From contig NZ_MWQN01000002.1 of assembly GCF_002024165.1 (NCBI RefSeq), forward strand, positions 1,178,001 through 1,242,000: a stretch of DNA of 64,000 nt, read 5' to 3'. A program made the position numbers and the translations under genes. Below are positions 3,472 to 57,773 of this stretch, in pieces (positions within the stretch are counted from its first letter, which is position 1; the number at the start of each line of letters is the position of its first letter). The stretch is from Embleya scabrispora (GTDB taxonomy: Bacteria; Actinomycetota; Actinomycetes; Streptomycetales; Streptomycetaceae). The notes under the pieces are model-generated. The model saw only the letters and a program-made list of their open reading frames with translations, was not told the DNA's origin and did no database searches.

Positions 3472-4576
3472 CCCCACCGCCCGACCCGGCACCTCCCCGG
3501 CGGCCGCATCCCCCAGCGGGGGTGCGGCCCCCGGGCCCCGGGCCGCGCGCGGCTCCCACCCCTTCGCCAGGTTCGTCCTGGTGCGCCTGTCCATCGGCCT
3601 GCTGCTGTGCGTCGGCATCACGGTCCTGGCCTTCGTGCTGACCCACTCGGTGCCCGGCGACCCCGTCGCCGCGAACCTCGGCGACCGGGCCCAGAACGAC
3701 CCGGCCGCGGTCGCCGCGTTCAAGGAGAAGAACGGGCTCAACGACTCGCTGCCCTCGCAGTACTTCACCTACCTGGGCAACCTGCTGCACGGCGACATGG
3801 GCACCTCCCAGCAGACCCACCGCGCGGTCTGGGACGACCTGGGCGACAAGATCCCCGCCAGTCTCGAACTCGCCCTGTTCGCCATCGTGTTGGCCCTGGT
3901 GATCGGCGTCGGCTTGGGTATCGTCGCCGCCGTCACCCGCAACGGGTGGCCGGACCGGGTGATCCGCGTGGTCAGCCTCGCGGGCGTGTCCATGCCGGTC
4001 TTCTGGCTCGCCCAGGTCGCCTTCTACCTCTTCTCGTTCAAGCTCGGCTGGATCCAGGCCGGCGGTCGGCTCTCGCCCGGCGCGATTCCCCCGGACGAGA
4101 TCACCGGCCTCTACACGCTCGACTCGCTCCTGGTCGGCGACACCGGCACCTTCGGTGAGGCCTTCTCCCGGATGATCCTGCCCGCCTGCGTCCTGGCCGC
4201 CTTCAACATCGGCGTGCTCACCCGCTTCACCCGCGCCGCCGTGCTCGAAGCCCTCGGCAACGACTACGTGCGCGCCGCCCGGGCGAAGGGACTTCCCGAG
4301 AGCACGGTCATCCGTCGGCATGTGCTGCGCCCCGCGCTCACCTCGATCCTGACCGTCGCCGGCCTCACCTTCGGCGGCATGCTCGCCGGCACCGTGCTCG
4401 TCGAGAACGTGCTGTCCTGGCCGGGGCTGGGCCAGTACGCCTACAAGAGCGCGCTCAACCTGGACCTGCCGTCCATCATGGGCGTCTGCCTGTTCGTCGC
4501 GGTCGTCTACGTCGTGATCAACCTCCTCGTGGACCTGCTCTACGGGGTCATCGACCCGAGGATTCGCCTCTCGTGA
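3452..4576 (+). CDS. ABC permease, DppB type
   Basis: A 374-residue inner-membrane subunit of the same importer. After a proline- and alanine-rich leader of about 35 residues there are six predicted membrane helices. The EAA loop (NDYVRAARAKGLPESTVIRR) contacts the ATPases, and the C-terminus ends GVIDPRIRLS as usual for DppB. The ATG at 3452 lies 20 bases inside the lipoprotein gene, which suggests coupled translation. A later start is possible because the first residues are not conserved-looking. The next permease overlaps by GTGA. Confidence 0.92.
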   Translation: MSTSSADPTARPGTSPAAASPSGGAAPGPRAARGSHPFARFVLVRLSIGLLLCVGITVLAFVLTHSVPGDPVAANLGDRAQNDPAAVAAFKEKNGLNDSLPSQYFTYLGNLLHGDMGTSQQTHRAVWDDLGDKIPASLELALFAIVLALVIGVGLGIVAAVTRNGWPDRVIRVVSLAGVSMPVFWLAQVAFYLFSFKLGWIQAGGRLSPGAIPPDEITGLYTLDSLLVGDTGTFGEAFSRMILPACVLAAFNIGVLTRFTRAAVLEALGNDYVRAARAKGLPESTVIRRHVLRPALTSILTVAGLTFGGMLAGTVLVENVLSWPGLGQYAYKSALNLDLPSIMGVCLFVAVVYVVINLLVDLLYGVIDPRIRLS

Positions 4577-25736: not shown

Positions 25737-27908
25737 GTGACCGCGAAACCCGCCGGAGAAGATCCCACCCCGCCGGCCGAAGCCCGCTCGAAACCCGGGC
25801 CGAACGCCATCCCGCACCAGAGCGCCGCCACACCCGAGGTGCCCGCCGAGACCTCGCCCGAGGTCCCCGCCGAAGTCCCGATCGAAGAGCCCGCCGAAGT
25901 CCTGACCCAAGCCCCGACCCAAGCCCCGACCCAAGCCCCGACCCAAGCCCCGACCCAAGCCCCGACCGAAGTCCCGACCCAAGCCCCGACCGAAGTCCCG
26001 ACCCAAGCCTCGACCGAAGTCCCGGCCGCCGACGAACGCCCGGACCAGGAACTGGCGTTCGCGCCCCCGGGCCGGGACACCGCCGTCGCGCTGACGAAGA
26101 TCACCACCCGCGCCATGGCCGCCCGCCTGCCGCATCTGCTGGTGCGCGCCATGCGCCTGGCCTGGAAGGCCGATCCGCGGGCCCTGATCGCGCTGATGGT
26201 ATGTCAGGTCCTGGCCGGCGTACTCGAAGCCGGCGGACTGCTCGCCACGACCGGAACGATCACCGCGCTGATCTCGTCGGGTGACGTCACCGACCGGTTG
26301 CGTGACGCGCTGCCCTCGATCCTCCTGCTGAGCGCGGCGGTCGGGGTGCGCGCGGTGCTCGGCATCGCCGTGGTGGCGCTGTCCGCACGCGTGACACCGC
26401 GGCTGACCCGCGAGTCCGAATGGCTGCTGCTCCAGGCCGCCTCCCGGGCCGAGTTGGCCGCCTACAACCACCCCGGCTATCAGGACCGGTGGGACGCCGC
26501 CGACCGGGGCCTGCAGTCGATGCGCGGTCTGATGCCGCAGTCCCAGGACGTCCTCGCCGCCTGCGCCTCGCTGATCGCCGCCGCGTCCGTCCTCACCCTC
26601 CTGCACCCGGTGCTGCTGCCCCTGCTGCTCCTGGGCGCGCTGCCGCGCGGGGTGGCGGCGGTGCGCGGGGCGCGGGTCGAATACCTGACCACATTGCACA
26701 CCCAGGACGAGCGGCGGCTGCTCAACATGCTGCGTTGGCACATCTCCGATCAGCGCTGGGCCGACCAGCTCCGGGCCGGCACCATGGCGCCGTTCCTGCT
26801 CGGCCGCTACGCCGTCGCGGCCGATCGGGTCCAGCGGGTCACCCAGTCCGGCGCCTGGACCACCGCCAAGATCGGCCTGGTCGGCGCCGCCGTCGGCGGG
26901 TTGGCGGCAAGCCTGGTGTGGGCAGCGCTGGCGTACCTGCTGTCCACCGACCGCATGTCGGTGGCCGCCGCCGGCACCGCGGTCATCGCGCTGCGCACGG
27001 TCGGTACGGCCCTGGGCGGCCTGGTGGTCTCCGGCAGTCGGCTCTACAGCGTCGGCCTGTACCTCGACGACTGGGCCCGCTTCCTCGACGAGGCCGGCGG
27101 TCACGCGATGACGCGCGGCGACCTCGTCCCGAAGCCGCCCGTCGTGGTCCGCGCCGAGAACGTCACCTACCGCTACCCCGGCAAGGCCGCACCCGCCGTC
27201 GCCGGCATCAACTTGGAGCTGCGCAAGGGCACCATCCTGGCCCTGGTGGGGGAGAACGGCTCCGGCAAGTCGACCCTGTCCCGCCTGCTGTGCGGCCTGT
27301 ACCTGGCCCACGAGGGCCGGGTCACCTGGAACGGTGACGACGTGGGCGACCTCGACCCGCACGCGGCCTGGTCCCACGTCGGCTACGTCCCCCAGGAGAT
27401 CGCCCGCTGGCCGCTGTCCGCCCGACTGAACATCAACCTCGGCCAACCCCGCGAGGACGACGACGAGGCGATCGAGCGCGCGGCCGGCGCCTCGGGCGCG
27501 GACGACGTGATCGCCGGACTCCCCCGCGGCCTCGGCACGCTCCTGGCCCGCGAATGGTGGGGCGGCGTCGACCCGTCCGTGGGCCAGTGGCAACGATTCG
27601 GCATCGCCCGCGCGCTGTACGGCGAGCCGGCGCTGATCTGCCTGGACGAACCCACCTCGGCCCTCGATCCCCGAGCCGAACACCGCATCTTCGCGGGCCT
27701 GCGCGAGATCGCCCGGGACGGCGCCGTCGTACTGGTCACCCACCGACTGGCCAACGTCGCGGTCGCGGACCACATCGTGGTGATGGACTCGGGGCGGGTG
27801 ATCCAGCAGGGCACGTTCGACGAACTCCTCGCGGAACACCACGGGTTGTTCGCCGAACTGTGGCGGCTGCAACAGGACCGGGGCGCCGAATCCGCGCCGC
27901 GCGCGTAG
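25737..27908 (+). CDS. ABC exporter (fused permease-ATPase) with repetitive N-terminus
   Basis: A 723-residue half-transporter. The first 110 residues are a low-complexity TQAP/TEVP repeat. The membrane domain spans about residues 140-460 and the ATPase domain 470-715. Walker A is GENGSGKST, Walker B LICLDEPTSALD and the H-loop VTHRLANV. The signature reads PSVGQWQR instead of LSGGQQQR, a clear deviation. The GVDP-GQWQRFGIARAL context is that of actinomycete lipid or peptide exporters. The start is GTG 25737. It is followed 28 bases later by a small protein gene. Cargo unknown. Confidence 0.88.
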   Translation: MTAKPAGEDPTPPAEARSKPGPNAIPHQSAATPEVPAETSPEVPAEVPIEEPAEVLTQAPTQAPTQAPTQAPTQAPTEVPTQAPTEVPTQASTEVPAADERPDQELAFAPPGRDTAVALTKITTRAMAARLPHLLVRAMRLAWKADPRALIALMVCQVLAGVLEAGGLLATTGTITALISSGDVTDRLRDALPSILLLSAAVGVRAVLGIAVVALSARVTPRLTRESEWLLLQAASRAELAAYNHPGYQDRWDAADRGLQSMRGLMPQSQDVLAACASLIAAASVLTLLHPVLLPLLLLGALPRGVAAVRGARVEYLTTLHTQDERRLLNMLRWHISDQRWADQLRAGTMAPFLLGRYAVAADRVQRVTQSGAWTTAKIGLVGAAVGGLAASLVWAALAYLLSTDRMSVAAAGTAVIALRTVGTALGGLVVSGSRLYSVGLYLDDWARFLDEAGGHAMTRGDLVPKPPVVVRAENVTYRYPGKAAPAVAGINLELRKGTILALVGENGSGKSTLSRLLCGLYLAHEGRVTWNGDDVGDLDPHAAWSHVGYVPQEIARWPLSARLNINLGQPREDDDEAIERAAGASGADDVIAGLPRGLGTLLAREWWGGVDPSVGQWQRFGIARALYGEPALICLDEPTSALDPRAEHRIFAGLREIARDGAVVLVTHRLANVAVADHIVVMDSGRVIQQGTFDELLAEHHGLFAELWRLQQDRGAESAPRA
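25904..26023 (+). repeat. Ten 12-base tandem repeats inside the exporter gene
   Basis: Ten consecutive 12-base units, seven close to GACCCAAGCCCC up to 26011 and three GACCGAAGTCCC interspersed, encode four-residue units TQAP and TEVP. The period keeps the reading frame, so copy number can change without frameshift. The encoded stretch would be an extended acidic-neutral linker before the membrane domain. Confidence 0.9.
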
Positions 27909-44773: not shown

Positions 44774-45619
44774 TCAGGCGGCGCGGCGGCAGTGGAAGAT
44801 GCCCCAGTTCATCCGGCCGCTGCGGCACGCGTCGACCCACAACGGCAGGTTCTCCTGGAGGGCGGCGAGGTAGCTCGGGTCGATCACGCCACGGAGTTCG
44901 TCGGCGCGCCGGTGGGTCTCCTCGGTCAGGCGCAGGTAGTGGGTGAGCGCCTGGTCGCTGCGGTCGTCGAAGTCGATGTGGGTCAGGCCCAGCGCGGCGA
45001 TCTCGCGGAGGTAGAACGACGGCGTGGCGAACTCCGCCACCTCGAGCCGGGCCAGCACGGAGCGCAGCGCCTCGGGCGGGGTGCCGTCGGCGGCCATCAG
45101 GTCGGTGAAGACCAGGTCCCCATCCGGGGCCAGTACACGAGCGGCCTCGGCCAGGAGTTGCCGCCGATCACCGCTGTGGCAGAACGCCTCCTGCGACCAC
45201 ACCACGTCGAACCGCCCCGCCGGGTACGGGATGTCCTGGAACGAGCCGGTGACGACCTCGATCAGCCCGTCCAGACCGGCCTCGACGTTGGTGTCGTGAT
45301 GCCGGACGTTCTGCGTCGGACTGATGTTGAGCGCGACGACCCGACACCCGAACCGCCCGGCCAGGTAGCGAGCCGGCCCGCCGTACCCCGAGCCCAGGTC
45401 CAACACCGTATGCTCCGGCCCGAGCCGCCCGGCGACCCGATCCGCCGCGAGCTCGACGGCGCGGCGGGACGCGACCGCGACCGATTCGTCGGCGCGGGCG
45501 TACACGCCGGTATGGATGTCCTCGCCGCCCCACACGGCCCGATAGAAACCGTCGACGTCGCCGGTGCCGTAGTAGCGCCGCGCCGCCTCGGCAGCCGCGA
45601 CCGCGCTCTCGGAACTCAT
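44774..45619 (-). CDS. SAM-dependent methyltransferase (sarcosine/dimethylglycine type)
   Basis: A 281-residue enzyme. Motif I is VLDLGSGYGGPARYLAGRFG, then VVALNISPTQNVRHH and VVWSQEAFCHSGDR. The N-terminal YYGTGDVDGFYRAVWGGEDI pattern is shared with sarcosine/dimethylglycine N-methyltransferases and related enzymes. ATG 45619 is chosen because the family pattern starts there. It may make betaine-like osmolytes, but related methyltransferases modify many natural products. It is transcribed toward the frameshifted DUF574 gene. Confidence 0.85.
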   Translation of the reverse strand: MSSESAVAAAEAARRYYGTGDVDGFYRAVWGGEDIHTGVYARADESVAVASRRAVELAADRVAGRLGPEHTVLDLGSGYGGPARYLAGRFGCRVVALNISPTQNVRHHDTNVEAGLDGLIEVVTGSFQDIPYPAGRFDVVWSQEAFCHSGDRRQLLAEAARVLAPDGDLVFTDLMAADGTPPEALRSVLARLEVAEFATPSFYLREIAALGLTHIDFDDRSDQALTHYLRLTEETHRRADELRGVIDPSYLAALQENLPLWVDACRSGRMNWGIFHCRRAA

Positions 45620-45652
45620 CACCGCCACCCTCACCCTTCGCTCGTGCGCCAC

Positions 45653-46015
45653 CGCCGGGGGACCCGACGGCAGGTTCGCTCGAATGTGCCGAATTCGACG
45701 TTAGTCGGCTTCGTTACCGGTGACCGGGATTCGGCAATCATCAGCTTTTTGGGGGTGGACGGCCCTCGATGTTCGCACCGTCCGAGCGACCGAGCGACCA
45801 CCGCCCGACCGCAGCGTGTCCTTCGCGGTGTCCGAGTCAGTCGAAGTAGTGACGCCCCAACGTGCCTGTCCGAAGCGCGAATCGGGGGACGGACGACCCC
45901 GCGTCACCGCGCCGCCGGGTTGATCCGAAACCGTGCGATCGCCAACGTGAAGCCCGGTTGTTCTCAGGGGAGTTCGCGCTACGATCCAGCGATCGTGGCG
46001 ATGAGCGGGGGAAAC
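45653..46015. promoter_or_regulatory. Divergent gap before lipoprotein gene
   Basis: 363 bases with no gene. A weak forward promoter TTGTTC (45958-45963) with TACGAT (45980-45985, 16-base spacer) precedes the lipoprotein gene. GTTACCGGTGAC near 45713 is a near palindrome, and a T5G5 tract follows at about 45745. I would not claim more. Confidence 0.4.
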
Positions 46016-46462
46016 GTGGGGCGTTGCGCCTGGTGGCGAACGGTGGTGTCGCGGGCCGTGCGCGGCACCACACCGGCTCTGGCGGCCGTCGTGACGATCT
46101 CCTGCTCGGTGTCGGGGGCCGACTTCGACCGCCCGTGGCACGACACCACGCGCGACTACCTGCACGCGGTCGCCGCCGGCCGACCGGCGGCCGCGTTCCA
46201 CGGCACCTGCGACGGCGCGCGCGAGGAGGACACCCGCCGGGTGGTGGCGGGCGAGGGCGCCGACTTCACGTTCTCGTTCGTCGATTCCACCCGGGAGGAC
46301 GACCTGGCCACCGTGAACGTCTCGATCACCGGCTCCGACCACTCCCCTTCGCCCTACTCGGTCGACCTGCGCCGAGAACACGGCAAGTGGTTCGTCTGCC
46401 ACCTGGCCACAGGCAACACCGCCATCGACGCCGGCCTCCCGGGAAACGCCCCCATCGGCTGA
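46016..46462 (+). CDS. Small lipoprotein, NTF2/DUF4878-like
   Basis: A 148-residue exported protein. A short basic start, a hydrophobic stretch (ALAAVVTISC) and Cys33 form a lipoprotein signal. The rest, RDYLHAVAAGRPAAAFHGTC to KWFVCHLATGN, follows the cystatin/NTF2-like pattern of DUF4878 lipoproteins: an initial helix, then strands ending in a conserved tryptophan-valine-cysteine. GTG 46016 follows GCGGGGGAAAC. ATG 46001 is the alternative. A long hairpin follows the stop. Function unknown. Confidence 0.78.
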   Translation: MGRCAWWRTVVSRAVRGTTPALAAVVTISCSVSGADFDRPWHDTTRDYLHAVAAGRPAAAFHGTCDGAREEDTRRVVAGEGADFTFSFVDSTREDDLATVNVSITGSDHSPSPYSVDLRREHGKWFVCHLATGNTAIDAGLPGNAPIG

Positions 46463-46547
46463 CCGGGCCCGGGCCCACAAACCTTCGGCAACCAAAAGCA
46501 CCATCCTGGCCGCACATGCAGACCCAACACCCAAGCCACCGATCGGC

Positions 46548-46610
46548 CTTGCCAAGACACGGGCGCCGGCGCTGCGGCGCTGCGGAGCTCCGGCGCCGAG
46601 GCTTGGCAAG
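46548..46610 (+). terminator. Two-part hairpin after lipoprotein gene
   Basis: CTTGCCAAG (46548-46556) pairs with CTTGGCAAG (46602-46610), and GGCGCCGG (46562-46569) with CCGGCGCC (46590-46597). Together they make a 17-bp interrupted stem with a 20-base loop, about 85 bases after the stop and just before the 208-base repeats. Confidence 0.6.
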
Positions 46611-46624
46611 TCGGGTGGCGTACG

Positions 46625-47325
46625 CGGGGAGGACGGGCGGGCGGGTGGTTGGGCCGAGTCCTCCGGAGGGCCTTCCCGAGCGGGTCGGGCGTTCCCGGCG
46701 GTGCGTTGCGCTTTCGGCTGCGGGCCGGCCGGTGCGGGGTTGGTCCGAGTCGGTGATGGGCCGCCGCCGGCGTTCGGGGCTCCGAGGCTTGGGACTCCGG
46801 TGAGGCGGGTGCATTGGTCGGCGAAAACCGGCTGGCAGCGGGGGGCAGGGTGGGTGCTCGGGTCCAGTCCTCCGGGCAACCTTCTCGAGCAGGTCGGGTG
46901 CTTTCGGCGCCCGTTGCGCCTTGGGCTGCGGGTGGCCGGTGCGGGGTTGGTCCGAGTCGGTGGTGGGCCGCCGCCGGCGTTCGGGGCTCCAAGACTTCGG
47001 GCTTCCGACGAGACGGGTGTGTTGGTCGGCGAAAACCGGCTGGCAGCGGGGGGCAGGGAGGACGGCTGGGTCGAGTCTTCCGGAGGGCCTTTGCGAAGGG
47101 GTCGGGCGTTCTTGGCGCCCGTTGCGCCTTGGGCTGCGGGTGGCCGGTGCGGGGTTGGTCCGAGTCGAAGGTGGGCCGCCGCCGGCGTTCGGGGCTCCAA
47201 GACTTCGGGCTTCCGACGAGACGGGTGTGTTGGTCGGCGAAAACCGGCTGGCAGCGGCGGGCCGGGAGGGCGGTCGGGTCGAGTCCTCCGAGGAACCCTG
47301 CTGGGTGGGTCGGGGCGCTTCGGGG
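46625..47325 (+). repeat. 208-base tandem repeat array, left arm (forward)
   Basis: About 3.4 copies of a 208-base unit. The conserved core GAAAACCGGCTGGCAGCG starts at 46823, 47031 and 47239, exactly 208 bases apart. A partial copy precedes the first core. Other conserved words are CGTTCGGGGCTCC, TCCGGAGGGCC and GTCCGAGTCG. Because 208 is not a multiple of three, no frame can encode the same peptide in successive units, so the array is almost certainly non-coding. The unit contains GGCGC-N5-GCGCC, a possible small hairpin. Confidence 0.92.
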
Positions 47326-47694
47326 GCGTTTGGAGGGGAGTTGGGGTCGGAACCGGATCGCGATCGGCCGTAATGGGTTTCGAGTTTCGGTGACCTGCGG
47401 TTTTGTGGGATCGGGGTGGAAAGTCGGGCGCCGAGTGCCGGTTTCGTGCGCTTCGACCCCCTCAACGCCGGAGCGGAGACCGAAACCGCCCCATCGGGCC
47501 GACTTCGGGCGCTGCGACCCCACGGAAGGACGTCGAGGAGACCGAAAGTGCCCGGTGAGAGCCGAAACCGGATTCCAAAGGCATCCGAAACAGCCGCCGT
47601 CCGCGCTGACCTGCGATCTTCTCTCACGCCAAGACTCCGGCGACCCATGCGATCCGGGTTCGTAAACTTTCGTCACCCACATGCCACCGCCCGC
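47326..47694. other. Unique centre between the inverted repeat arrays
   Basis: About 370 bases not belonging to the repeat, flanked by oppositely oriented copies. No convincing gene. It contains several GAAACCG- and CCGAAA-like words on both strands (for example near 47485, 47543 and 47567) that may pair with each other. Recombination between the flanking arrays would invert it. Confidence 0.6.
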
Positions 47695-48676
47695 CGAAAA
47701 CACGCGGCCCACTCGGGAAGGCGCCCCGGAAGACCCGACCCGAGCACCCACCTCGCCCCCGCTGCCAGCCGGTTTTCGGCGAGCAAGACGCGCGTCTCGT
47801 CCGGGGCGCGGAGTCTTGGAGCCCCGAACGCTGGCGGCGGCCCATCTTCGACTCGGACGGGCCCCGGACCGGCTACCCGCAGCCCAAGGCGCAATGGGTG
47901 CCGAGAACTCTCGACCCGCTTGGGAAGGCTCTCCGGAGGACTGGACCCGGCCGTCCTCTCTGCCGCCCGCTGCCAGCCGGTTTTCGGCGAGCAAGGCGCG
48001 TGTTTCGTCGGGGGCGCGGAGTCTTGGAGCCCCGAACGCTGGCGGCGGCCCATCTTCGACTCGGGCGGGCCCCGGACCGGCCACCCGCAGCTCAAGGCGC
48101 AACGGGCGCCAAGAACGCTTGACTCCATCGCAAAGGCCCTCCGGAAGACTCGACCCGGCCGTCCTCTCTGCCGCCCGCTGCCAGCCGGTTTTCGGCGAGC
48201 AAGGCGCGTGTTTCGTCGGGGGCGCGGAGTCTTGGAGCCCCGAACGCTGGCGGCGGCCCATCTTCGACTCGGGCGGGCCCCGGACCGGCCACCCGCAGCT
48301 CAAGGCGCAACGGGCGCCAAGAACGCTTGACTCCATCGCAAAGGCCCTCCGGAAGACTCGACCCGGCCGTCCTCCCTGCCCTCCGCTGCCAGCCGGTTTT
48401 CGCCGAGCAAGGCGCGTGTTTCGTCGGAAGCCCGAAGTCTTGGAGCCCCGAACGCTGGCGGCGGCCCATCTTCGACTCGGACGGGCCCCGGACCGGCTAC
48501 CGCAGCCCAAGGCGCAATGGGTGCCGAGAACTCTCGACCCGCTTGGGAAGGCTCTCCGGAGGACTGGACCCGGCCGTCCTCTCTGCCCCCGTTGCCAGCC
48601 GGGTTTCGCCGAGCAAGACGCGCGTCTCGTCGGGAGCCCCGTGTTTTTGGAGTCCCGAACGCCGGCGGCGGCCACT
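47695..48676 (-). repeat. 208-base tandem repeat array, right arm (reverse)
   Basis: About 4.7 copies of the same unit in reverse orientation. The reverse core GCTGCCAGCCGGTTTTC starts at 47761, 47969, 48177 and 48385 (208 bases apart) and, in diverged form, at 48591 (206 bases). Copies at 47969 and 48177 are nearly identical over their whole length. The two arms together form a very long imperfect inverted repeat. Long frames across the array exist only because GC-rich DNA lacks stops. Confidence 0.92.
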
Positions 48677-48847
48677 GGCTGCCTGCGCGGCCCGAGGGGC
48701 AGCGTGTGCCGGGGGCCTTCTGCCTGTTCGGGCAGGTTTTCGGCGGGCTCTTGCTTCGGTTGCCGCCGCCCTGGTCCCGTCCCCGGAGCCGCGTGTGCGG
48801 GGGATACTCGCGGCGTAGAGTCCGACCACCTTTGGGAGGGCCGGTGA
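48677..48847 (+). promoter_or_regulatory. Flank of the repeat array and promoter of the two-component operon
   Basis: GCTGCC (48678-48683) with GGCAGC (48698-48703), and CTGCC (48720-48724) with GGCAG (48731-48735) followed by TTTT (48737-48740), are hairpins that could terminate transcription leaving the array. GCGTAGAGT near 48813-48821 resembles a -10. GGGAGGG (48834-48840) is the ribosome site of the response regulator. Confidence 0.45.
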
Positions 48848-49606
48848 GTGTGGGGTGGTGGACGGGTGGTTGAGGGGGAGGGGGCTGCGGGGGCGGCTCG
48901 GATATTGGTTGTGGATGACGATCCTGCCATTCGGCGGGCCCTCGAGCGGGGGCTGCGGTTGGCCGGCTATCGGGTGCAGTTGGCCTCGGATGGGGCGGCG
49001 GCGTTGGCTGCGGTCGGGACCGGAGAAGGGCTCGGGGGGCAGGCGGCGCCGCAGGCGATCGTGCTCGACGTGGCCATGCCCGGGCTTACCGGGATCGAGG
49101 TGTGTGCCGCGTTGCGTGAGCGCGGGGTGGATACCCCGGTGCTGATGTTGTCCGCTCGGGACGAGACCGTCGACCGGATCACCGGGCTGGAATCGGGTGC
49201 GGACGACTACCTGGTCAAGCCCTTCGACCTGCGCGAACTCGAACTCAGGCTGCGTGCGCTGTTGCGTCGTCGACCGCCGGCCCCGGTCGGGGATCGGGTG
49301 CTGCGGGCAGGGCCGCTGACCCTGGACGGTGCCGCGTATCTGGCCACCTACGAGGGTGAGCCGGTGAACCTGACCGCTCGCGAGTTCGCGCTGCTCGACG
49401 TGTTCGTGCGCAATGCCGGGCTGGTCCTGACTCGGGACCAGTTGCTGGCCCGGGTATGGGGCTACGACTTCGAGGTGCGGACCGATGTGGTCGACACCTT
49501 CGTGAGCTACCTGCGCCGCAAGTTGGAGGCCGGTGGCAGGCCGCGCCTGTTGCACACCGTGCGCGGGGTGGGCTTCGTGCTTCGCGTGTCGGACGGCCGG
49601 CGGTGA
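48848..49606 (+). CDS. OmpR-family response regulator
   Basis: A 252-residue regulator. The receiver domain has the acidic cluster VVDDDP, phosphoacceptor Asp74 in IVLDVAMPG, and Lys124 in DYLVKPFDL. The C-terminal winged HTH spans about residues 150-250 (LTAREFALLDVFVRNAGLVL, VVDTFVSYLRRKLEAGG). GTG 48848 lies 7 bases after GGGAGGG. GTG 48866 is possible. The histidine kinase gene overlaps its stop by GTGA, so they are a cognate pair. Confidence 0.93.
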   Translation: MWGGGRVVEGEGAAGAARILVVDDDPAIRRALERGLRLAGYRVQLASDGAAALAAVGTGEGLGGQAAPQAIVLDVAMPGLTGIEVCAALRERGVDTPVLMLSARDETVDRITGLESGADDYLVKPFDLRELELRLRALLRRRPPAPVGDRVLRAGPLTLDGAAYLATYEGEPVNLTAREFALLDVFVRNAGLVLTRDQLLARVWGYDFEVRTDVVDTFVSYLRRKLEAGGRPRLLHTVRGVGFVLRVSDGRR

Positions 49607-51216
49607 AGGCGGCAGATGTGGACCGGGCGGTGAACGTGGCCGGCGGGGGTGCGCCGTCCGCGCCCGCCGGTGGACCCGTATCCGTCGAGGCCGGCCGCCG
49701 GCCGTCGGGCGCCACCTCCCCGGCCCGGCGCCGGCGACTGTCGATGCGGTTGTCCACCCGGATCGCGCTCGCCGTCGGCATCCTGGTTCCCCTCCTCGTG
49801 ATCGCGGCCGGAAGTCTGGTTGTGCGGTGGGTCACCGCTGATGTGACTCACCGTCAGGACGTCACGTTGCGGCAGCGCGCCGATCGGCTTGCTCCGGATG
49901 CTCGGGCGCTTCTGCGTGCCGTCGAGAACGATCGGGAGAATGCCGTGCGGGTCCGGGAGACCAAGCTGTTCGACGGGGCGCTCGACGTCGGGGTGCGCGT
50001 CGAACTGCCCGGCGGGCCGGTCGCCGCCGGGCCGCAACCGCCGCCCGAGGTGGCGCTGCCGGAGAATCGGCGGTCCGGGCCTGTCACCGTGCGCTCCGGC
50101 GGCAAGGCCTGGCGCGTGATCACCCGGCCGCTGGGTGCGACGCGCTCCGGGGCGTCGGCGACGCTTCGGGTGTTCCAGCCGACGGCGGAGACCGAGGCCC
50201 GTACCGCGCTGCTGCGCCGCCGGGTGTTCGTGGTCGCGCTGTTCGCCGTACCGATCTCCGCCCTCGCCGGCCTGGTCGTCGCCGGCACGACCACCCGCTC
50301 GTTGCGGGCGCTGCGCCGACGGGCGGCGGCGATCGAACCGGACGACCGGGAGCGGCCGGACGTACACGTCCCGTCGGGTGTGGCCGAGGTGGACGAACTC
50401 GGTCGCACTCTCGCGGACGTGCTCGGGCGCTACGACGTGCAGACCGCGCGGACCCGGGACGCCCTGGACACGGCGAGCGCGTTCGCCGCGACCGTCGACC
50501 ACGAACTGCGCGGGCCGCTCACCGGGATGCGAACCGACCTCGACGTGCTCGTCGGCTACCCCGACCTGGCGGCGCACGAGCGCATCGAGGTACTGGCCGA
50601 CCTGACCGCCGGCCACGAGCGGATCCTGTCCCTGCTCGCCTCGCTGCGCGCCCTCGCCCAGGGCGACCTGGCCGACGCGCAATCCTTCGAGCGGGTGGAC
50701 CTGGTCGAACTCGCCCACGAGGCGGCCCACGACGCGCGGATTCGGCAGCCAGGCGCGGAGGTCGAGGTGGTCGGCTCCGGCGAGGTCCGGGTCGACGGCC
50801 TGCGCCCGGGACTGCGCCTGGTCGTGGACAACCTGATCGGCAACGCGCTGGTGCACGGACGCGGCCCGCACGGGCCGACCCCGATCCGGGTCGCCGTCGA
50901 GGCGGTGCCCGACGGCGTCCGGATCCGGGTGGACGACGCCGGCCCGGGGATTCCGGTCGACCGCCGCGCGGCGGTCTTCGAGCGCTTCCGGCGCGGACCG
51001 GACAGCCCGGGAGCCGGTCTGGGGCTGACCCTGGTCGCCCAGCAGGTCGAGCTGCACCGGGGCCGGGTCACGGTCGCCGACTCGCCCGCGGGCGTCGGTA
51101 CGCGCGTCGAGGTCGTGCTCCCGCTACGGCACCCGGCGGCGGACGCGACCGGCGACGACGGGATCCGGCACGACTGGCTCACCCGCGAACCGGAGGCGGT
51201 CGACACCGCGAAGTGA
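49603..51216 (+). CDS. Sensor histidine kinase
   Basis: A 537-residue membrane kinase. Two membrane helices at about residues 52-75 and 206-228 enclose an extracellular sensor of about 125 residues. A HAMP linker follows, then the H-box with His300 in DHELRGPLTGMRTDL, the N-box DNLIGNALVHG, and the G-boxes VDDAGPGIP and GAGLGLTLV. The N-terminal 45 residues are disordered. It starts with the GTGA overlap. With the OmpR regulator it probably controls the secreted protein genes downstream. Confidence 0.93.
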   Translation: MKAADVDRAVNVAGGGAPSAPAGGPVSVEAGRRPSGATSPARRRRLSMRLSTRIALAVGILVPLLVIAAGSLVVRWVTADVTHRQDVTLRQRADRLAPDARALLRAVENDRENAVRVRETKLFDGALDVGVRVELPGGPVAAGPQPPPEVALPENRRSGPVTVRSGGKAWRVITRPLGATRSGASATLRVFQPTAETEARTALLRRRVFVVALFAVPISALAGLVVAGTTTRSLRALRRRAAAIEPDDRERPDVHVPSGVAEVDELGRTLADVLGRYDVQTARTRDALDTASAFAATVDHELRGPLTGMRTDLDVLVGYPDLAAHERIEVLADLTAGHERILSLLASLRALAQGDLADAQSFERVDLVELAHEAAHDARIRQPGAEVEVVGSGEVRVDGLRPGLRLVVDNLIGNALVHGRGPHGPTPIRVAVEAVPDGVRIRVDDAGPGIPVDRRAAVFERFRRGPDSPGAGLGLTLVAQQVELHRGRVTVADSPAGVGTRVEVVLPLRHPAADATGDDGIRHDWLTREPEAVDTAK

Positions 51217-56995: not shown

Positions 56996-57773
56996 GCAGG
57001 CTGCCCCGACGCAGTGCGAACGCACCGGCGCCCGCACCCGCGACGGCCAGCGCGCCGCCCAGGGCGAGCAGACCGGCGTCGGACTCGGTGGTCCCGCCCG
57101 AGCCACCGGCGACGGCGCCGACCGGCGTGGTCTTCGTCTGCGTCCCGTGGTGGGCCGCCGGCTGGACCACGTGGTGCGGCTTGGTCGTGTCGTTCTTGTG
57201 GTGCACGTGCTTGGGCCGATCGTGCTTCGGGCGCTCGTGCTTGGGGTGTTCGGGCTTCGAGTGCGCGGGCTTGTGGTTGTGCACGATGTTCGTCGTGTGG
57301 TTGTTGTTGATGTTCACCGTGTTGTTGGTCGTGTGATTGACCGTCACGTGCGACGTGCTCACGGTGGTGTTCGTGACGTGGTTGATCACGACCGGCCGGT
57401 GGATCGGCTTGTGGTCGGGCTTGCCGGCCGGCTTGTGGTCGGAATTGTGGTCCGGCTTCCCGGACGGCTTGTGATCGGGCTTGTCGGCAGGCTTGTCGGC
57501 GGGCTTCTCGGCCGGCTTGTGGTCGGGCTTCCCGGCCGGCTTGTGGTCCGGCTTCCCGCTCTGGCAGTCGTGCGTGGGCCGGGGGCAGCGGCCCACGCCG
57601 TCGGCGGTGCGCGCGGCCTGGTCGTCGTCGGACCCAACACTGGTGCCGGTCGCCGGGGCCTTGAGGGTCTTGCTCTGCGGGCCGAGGCCTTCGGCCGCGG
57701 CGGCCGTGCCGCCCATGGCTACGGCCAACAGGCCGGCGGCTACCGTGGTGCTAAGGACACGAGTGGTACGCAT
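56988..57773 (-). CDS. Surface protein with KPDHKP and NHTTNN repeats, likely sortase substrate
   Basis: A 261-residue secreted protein. The signal peptide (VLSTTVAAGLLAVAMGGTAA) is followed by a lysine/proline/histidine/aspartate repeat region (GKPDHKPAGKPDHKP), then a threonine/asparagine-rich stretch (NHTTNNTVNINNNHTTNIV), and a second HKP/KHERPKH region. The C-terminus has a GLLALGGALAVAGAGAGAFA membrane segment and a basic tail RRGSLRG, as in sorted proteins, but no classical LPXTG. SDAGLLA may mark the cleavage region. AGGAGAG precedes ATG 57773. The histidine repeats could bind metal. Confidence 0.82.
   Translation of the reverse strand: MRTTRVLSTTVAAGLLAVAMGGTAAAAEGLGPQSKTLKAPATGTSVGSDDDQAARTADGVGRCPRPTHDCQSGKPDHKPAGKPDHKPAEKPADKPADKPDHKPSGKPDHNSDHKPAGKPDHKPIHRPVVINHVTNTTVSTSHVTVNHTTNNTVNINNNHTTNIVHNHKPAHSKPEHPKHERPKHDRPKHVHHKNDTTKPHHVVQPAAHHGTQTKTTPVGAVAGGSGGTTESDAGLLALGGALAVAGAGAGAFALRRGSLRG

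Follow-up and report, generated by a model that had tools for sequence, protein, structure and literature searches.

Inverted arrays of a 208-bp repeat in Embleya look like copies of a dispersed, gene-free foldback element

What kind of sequence sets arrays of one 208-bp unit head to head between two genes of a plant-dwelling bacterium? The question is raised by a 64,000-nucleotide stretch of the Embleya scabrispora NF3 genome (hereafter the window), which lies on contig C2 (1,247,984 bases) of an assembly of 10,958,352 bases in 8 contigs. We judge, at a probability of roughly 0.6, that the array belongs to a dispersed family of gene-free, non-autonomous mobile elements of the foldback type, the arms of which would be arrays of putative protein-binding sites. 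A 1,248-kb NF3 contig is described as highly similar to part of EEC1, a large secondary replicon of Embleya, in a paper whose available text makes no mention of the element (PMC13152386), and the accessible part of the NF3 genome paper counts 156 repeat regions without describing them (PMC5813959).

The window array and its copies in NF3

Profile matches for unit and core place the whole window element at about 46635 to 48674. Its left arm, tandem 208-bp units on the + strand, occupies 46635 to 47322, and its right arm, the same units in opposite orientation (− strand), 47676 to 48674, each delimited by a repeat search, Tandem Repeats Finder and profile matches. Tandem Repeats Finder reported a period of 208 at 46650-47290 (3.1 copies) and 47718-48673 (4.6 copies), with which the separate repeat search agreed. 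The left arm consists of a partial unit (46635-46786), units at 46797-46995 and 47003-47203 and an inner partial unit (47211-47322), the right arm of an inner partial unit (47676-47801), units at 47813-48012, 48021-48220, 48229-48429 and 48437-48635, and a remnant (48646-48674); the units at 48021 and 48229 differ by ~4%. A first-pass annotation had listed eight motif positions in opposed arrays spaced by 208 bases, 206 for the last, and we reproduced every one exactly: 46823, 47031 and 47239 on the + strand (spacing 208, 208) and 47761, 47969, 48177, 48385 and 48591 on the − strand (208, 208, 208, 206). The conserved unit motif itself, GGCGAAAACCGGCTGGCAGCGG, is found at 46820-46841 (+) in the first of three left-arm occurrences, followed at 47028 and 47236, and at 47759-47780 (−) in the first of five right-arm occurrences, followed at about 47967, 48175, 48383 and 48589.

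Between the arms, profile and sequence comparison identified a conserved core of about 410 bp (47297-47710, +) that is common to other elements. From the window sequence and box constraint across 60 cores, it holds module A (47347-47446, +), with boxes TCGGAACCGGATC (47347-47359), GACCTGCGGTTTTG (47392-47405) and GTGCCGGTTTCG (47435-47446), and its direct repeat, module B (47562-47662, +), with boxes CCGAAACCGGATTCC (47562-47576), GACCTGCGATCTTC (47608-47621) and GATCCGGGTTCG (47651-47662), the second of which departs in the window from the consensus GACCTGCGGTTTTC. By our own gene caller, which also set the start codons, the element begins about 173 bp after a 139-aa gene without a Pfam match (46043-46462, +) and is followed by a response regulator gene (48959-49606, +) and a histidine kinase gene (49603-51216). 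Protein coding is not supported. Five long ORFs across the element scored −0.29 to −0.38 log-odds per codon versus +0.34 to +0.39 for three neighbouring genes, in line with the earlier view that this is not a peptide repeat, and these scores, together with unit spacings that vary by single bases, rule out a protein repeat.

Searching the host genome with one unit, a check that the first-pass annotation had suggested, returned 180 matches, and the unit array is therefore far beyond chance. By profile search the matched loci formed 26 clusters, in all of which a centre is flanked by units on the left and by oppositely oriented units on the right. The centre had been called unique, which holds within the window only: the core was found, in either orientation, in 26/26 of these clusters, and the window core shares 71-92% identity with other cores. 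Using the core as query added further elements beyond the unit-search clusters, and the NF3 inventory, built from profile hits with E below 0.01, stands at at least 43 elements spread over four contigs, 0.6 to 2.8 kb long (median 1.5 kb) and 64 kb in total; L083, which has two cores, is counted once, and the right arm of L052 falls outside its cluster. All 297 of the 297 NF3 arm units scoring above 20 bits are head-to-head around the nearest core, and arms measured from such units span 0 to 6.3 unit equivalents, a variable unit number as in foldback transposons. The lengths of the two arms of one element correlate (r 0.59). Long inverted arms of tandem sub-repeats around a middle segment, the layout of foldback elements, were found across the 43 elements.

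Gene neighbours were tabulated for 41 NF3 clusters, that is, the inventory without L129 and L130. No gene was called in the arms or core pieces of these clusters, and by our gene calls the elements are intergenic, with the exception of inserted cargo in a few. Convergent gene pairs flank 14 of the 41, versus 77 of 380 background pairs, a weak excess (p 0.03). Element density on the secondary-replicon contig C2 is above average (12 observed, 4.9 expected, P 0.005).

Ends, core and unit motif

Spacings between neighbouring full units are 207-209 bp in 54 of 90 cases and range from 170 to 217 in the others. Inner partial units stop mostly near unit-model positions 105-135. Outer ends gather at positions 110-129 (28/84), where many read TRCYGAGGTTTGCGCTTTTGGTTGCGGG versus GGCGGGCGTTGCGCTTTTGG in the internal consensus, and a second group of 15 lies at positions 0-9. 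A terminal inverted repeat, TRCYGAGGTTTGCGCTT, unlike the usual internal unit junction, is present on 16 of 132 ends, which score above 17 bits with a terminal-motif matrix versus a maximum of 10.4 in 300 null windows of ordinary DNA; the matrix was built from nine ends, and 7 of the 16 passing ends lie outside that seed. A defined terminal inverted repeat at the outer ends is what a foldback element would have, though most ends are without it: the remaining 116, those of the window included, score 17 bits or less, and in the window element no terminus above the 99% null and no intact terminal repeat was found. Internal unit junctions came near the terminal motif twice, one at 16.3 bits and one at 19.2 bits with a rebuilt matrix.

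Both termini are clear in L072, L081, L082 and the first element of L083, and in L033 the second (right) terminus is weak (10.0 bits). The complete minimal form is seen in L072 (4511-5298, 788 bp), each arm of which has a single unit. Two back-to-back elements make up L083 (4164-5567), and the termini of the first, at 4164 and 4884, match. In the five elements with both termini (one of them weak), no target-site duplication of 3 bp or more was detected at four end offsets; the matches were of 2 bp only, and the insertions look old. Nor was a transposase recognised in any element or cargo examined. Membership of a transposon superfamily is unproven because neither a transposase nor a target-site duplication was found.

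The core is under strong constraint. Among 60 cores that score above 150 bits and contain no N, no more than one parsimony change is needed at 45 of 395 sites, versus 3.2 expected under equal rates. The slow windows, GACCTGCGGTTT (twice), GTGCCGGTTTCG and CGAAACCGGATC (twice, in part), form two direct modules of ~100 bp, in each of which GACCTGCGGTTTT is framed by an inverted pair of CGAAACCGG-type boxes. Within the unit, the neighbouring windows GCCGCCGCCGGC and GCGTTCGGGGCT pass the permutation threshold, and the 12-base window CGAAAACCGGCC misses it (109 changes versus 93 at the 5% level); several columns of the unit motif are conserved at 97% or more in 172 units, a set restricted to units covering model positions 6-195. 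Judged by eye, the unit motif read as its reverse complement, GCTGCCAGCCGGTTTTC, looks like the core motif GCTGACCTGCGGTTTTC, a likeness to be taken as a lead only. For a foldback element it is unusual that conservation is higher in the core than at the ends, which could point to a host role.

Three ideas about the core were considered and set aside. Alignment of core to unit was no better than that of shuffles, at odds with a core made of two diverged units, and a global palindrome was not significant (consensus score 37 versus 26 ± 5 for shuffles, maximum 54). The core also contains GGTTCGAAACC, which we take to be T-arm-like in appearance; ARAGORN, run on 30 loci, reported two tRNAs, neither within an element, which speaks against a tRNA-derived origin.

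Occupied and empty sites in other Embleya genomes

We compared NF3 with E. hyalina NBRC 13850 (G001) and two further genomes of the same genus, G002 and G003. About 20 core loci were fetched from E. hyalina, while BLAST found no match to the core in G002 or G003. Across 200 genomes of the family, the genus included and three candidates scored per genome, real matches occurred in NF3 and E. hyalina only; four other family genomes gave single short matches with E near 0.0005-0.0009. A genome-collection scan with one core pattern returned 24 stretches, of which 17 belong to E. hyalina and the other 7 have core scores of 13 bits or less, and the same pattern found nothing among viral contigs. With the minimal element L072 as query, nine plasmid records gave short matches (best E 0.02) and no phage matched. 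The search for diverged copies covered E. hyalina, the fetched loci and 400 kb of G002.

The masked flanks of E. hyalina elements match NF3 element flanks at many loci, mostly at 84-97%. Nineteen NF3 sites could be placed in E. hyalina. Ten hold an element with a usable core (these were traced from E. hyalina elements, so that the sample leans to occupied sites), five more hold arrays, four of them at contig ends and that of L043 without a core, remnants lie at L035 and L073, and L039 and L071 are empty. These two are the only located sites without an element in E. hyalina, where it may have been lost. Several E. hyalina contigs end inside elements, and in 11 fetched loci N runs fall there; the elements thus break the E. 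hyalina assembly, and unit counts from this genome were left unused because of the scaffold gaps in the arrays of those 11 loci.

Fourteen sites (the window, L046, L050, L051 and ten others) were looked up in G002. Nine are empty (L036, L037, L039, L043, L046, L048, L051, L054 and L071), with the flanks 40 to about 680 bp apart and no unit or core match between them. The window and L050 sites have other sequence there, about 3 kb without an element, the sites of L033 and L034 were unpairable, and the L073 site retains a decayed core (E 3e-10) with faint arm matches, the only relic found in the 400-kb scan. All five sites fetched from G003 are empty as well; these were chosen for close flanks and are not a random sample, and outside the fetched set the flanks of L036 lie about 6 kb apart. 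Empty sites in relatives, as expected of an inserted foldback element, were thus observed in two Embleya genomes, and L039 and L071 lack the element in E. hyalina, G002 and G003 alike. Because G002 holds a decayed copy, the family is older than its burst, and the simplest history has an old family expanding in the shared ancestor of NF3 and E. hyalina, after which perhaps two further copies inserted in NF3.

Alone among the sites looked up, the L073 site (L073, L168, L176) shows remains of the element in all three of NF3, E. hyalina and G002, with several core-module pieces in E. hyalina, and this may have been the founder locus.

Ten shared sites have usable cores; the core closest in sequence was the orthologous one in only 1/10, and core orientation relative to the flanks was opposite in 3/10 (window/L101, L036/L093 and L042/L086), from which it follows that copies exchange sequence between loci. 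Among 133 full units of NF3, 100 have their nearest neighbour in their own element (45 adjacent, 15 non-adjacent in the same arm and 40 in the other arm), and the arms of one element therefore evolve together. Adjacent units are as little as 0.9-2.8% apart in six elements, which bears out an earlier suggestion of recent local amplification. The three guesses of the first-pass annotation as to function fared unequally: a recombination or inversion element came closest, given the flipped orthologous cores, to which we add that the elements form a dispersed family with shared ends, whereas the presence of 43 elements on four contigs makes a single-replicon partition site unlikely. The third, a small-RNA family, is taken up below.

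Mechanism, alternatives and known systems

In the foldback reading, an intact copy would run from a terminal repeat, TRCYGAGGTTTGCGCTT, through one to six 208-bp units, a core of about 410 bp and one to six inverted units to a second terminal repeat. A protein encoded elsewhere would bind one GAAAACCGGC site per unit and the similar-looking GACCTGCGGTTTT sites of the core, each arm unit adding, we infer, one more putative binding site. The bound protein may pair the two inverted arms and move copies among intergenic sites, and most of this movement probably predates the split between NF3 and E. hyalina. Arms would lengthen and shorten through unequal exchange, recombination between inverted arms would flip the core, and ectopic conversion would homogenise the copies. 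Any new, precise insertion would begin at TRCYGAGGTTTGCGC.

A bolder form of this proposal, which we regard as possible but doubtful, makes the conserved two-module core, not the ends, the active site of a bacterial foldback class. Here a dedicated protein would bind core and arm sites, flip the core, exchange copies between loci and capture neighbouring genes, and the family would amount to an array of sites common to the chromosome and secondary chromosome of Embleya.

The same constraint on the core boxes, strong while the rest changes, might instead mean that the host needs them, and that the elements are a host-maintained array of protein-binding sites on chromosome and secondary chromosome that serves the nucleoid, chromosome folding or segregation. 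Copies on four contigs, their position between genes by our calls, the likeness of unit motif to core motif and about 15 located sites occupied in both NF3 and E. hyalina (in a sample that leans to shared sites) are consistent with such an array. Against it, sites are empty within the same genus, at 9/14 in G002 and at the five fetched from G003, real BLAST matches among the 200 family genomes are confined to NF3 and E. hyalina, density is uneven (12 on contig C2 versus 4.9 expected), and the shared terminal repeats point to insertion. We hold this explanation to be unlikely.

Cargo bears on a further alternative, in which the elements are hubs of gene capture and recombination, with the core as an insertion site for foreign genes and the arms serving homologous recombination. 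L052 and L103 each have a called gene without a Pfam match inside the core. In L084 (9216-13566, E. hyalina contig 45), Asn_synthase, PqqD and Transglut_core3 genes, a set that we presume to be a lasso-peptide-type cluster, lie between two inverted partial core pieces with arms, and in L069 (5533-8788) a gene for an M1 peptidase and a fragment that is possibly the end of a resolvase (Pfam HTH_7, E 0.04, below the cut-off) lie between the broken right arm and a 40-bp terminus. Yet only about 4 of some 63 elements carry cargo, which differs each time and has no common insertion point that we could see, and passive insertion into neutral DNA explains it equally well, so that a capture hub appears improbable. 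More improbable still is passive, satellite-like DNA that spreads by replication slippage and ectopic recombination without a dedicated enzyme, or a product of misassembly: there is clear unequal exchange and conversion, but two separate assemblies have arrays at orthologous sites, and the fixed core, the fixed head-to-head order and the shared terminus suggest a specific mechanism. RNA structure is not supported, and transcription of the arrays into structured non-coding RNAs or RNA hairpins, among them the small-RNA family proposed earlier, can be given very little credence: the + strand of the whole core (30 sequences) and the opposite strand of module B fold better than column-shuffled alignments (z −4.1 and −4.4), but the scores are inconsistent (core − strand 1.2; module A 0.1 and 0.8; module B + strand 0.5; middle 0.5 and 0.9; 40 units 1.1 and 0.0), no conserved strand-specific structure of the kind seen in structured RNA families emerged, and the sole Rfam match in 45000-50500 falls far below threshold and outside the element.

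Eukaryotes are known to have foldback elements whose terminal repeats form arrays, and our literature searches brought up no bacterial one. The Embleya element is undescribed so far and looks like a mobile foldback element. If that is true, it offers a tractable system in a bacterium for asking why mobile elements multiply their end sites, and it identifies one origin of inversions, broken assemblies and captured genes in antibiotic-rich genomes with a secondary chromosome.

The first-pass annotation had held that no CRISPR, REP or insertion sequence fits, and we agree on all three. CRISPR arrays have short repeats, unique spacers and one orientation, whereas here the repetition extends over entire units, and their orientation inverts across a core. 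Miniature inverted-repeat transposable elements (MITEs) are short (up to about 600 bp) and gene-free with short terminal inverted repeats; the Embleya element is gene-free with terminal repeats, yet has a median length of 1.5 kb and arrayed arms. An insertion sequence is rejected on the gene-free arms and cores of the 41 NF3 clusters, the cargo of L052 and L103 being without a Pfam match and other cargo not transposase-like. REP and BIME sequences are likewise dispersed palindromic repeats of bacteria but are described as units of 20-40 bp in high copy (PMC3733652), as opposed to 43 elements of 0.6-2.8 kb with 208-bp units.

The closest known system in form is Tetris, a non-autonomous foldback transposon of Drosophila virilis with tandem units of about 220 bp in its terminal inverted repeats and, in the available text, no transposase-bearing copy (PMC4079207). 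The Embleya element resembles it in all these respects. Tetris, however, is eukaryotic and its complete copies have 8-10 bp target-site duplications (PMC4079207), whereas the Embleya element is bacterial, none was found for it, and its central core is the best-conserved part, unlike in Tetris. Galileo, a foldback-like member of the P superfamily linked to chromosomal inversions, has long terminal repeats in which tandem repeats hold several transposase-binding sites (PMC3688188), the mechanism that we propose for the Embleya unit motif. A transposase is known for Galileo and none for the Embleya element, and the likeness is one of form, with no sequence relation claimed. The closest bacterial system is BrickBuilt, a MITE with an internal minisatellite, present in Porphyromonas gingivalis in 19 copies of 84-991 nt and, like the Embleya element, gene-free and intergenic with variable tandem repeats and short terminal inverted repeats (PMC4596501). 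BrickBuilt has 23-bp direct repeats mid-element between a leader and a tail, as against two inverted arrays around a conserved core, and its terminal repeats resemble insertion sequences of its own genome (PMC4596501).

Elsewhere in the window, short-period tandem repeats occur at 25865-26024 (12, 24 or 36 bp) and 57190-57558 (12, 15, 24, 30, 36 or 48 bp); the periods are multiples of three, and both stretches are possibly coding.
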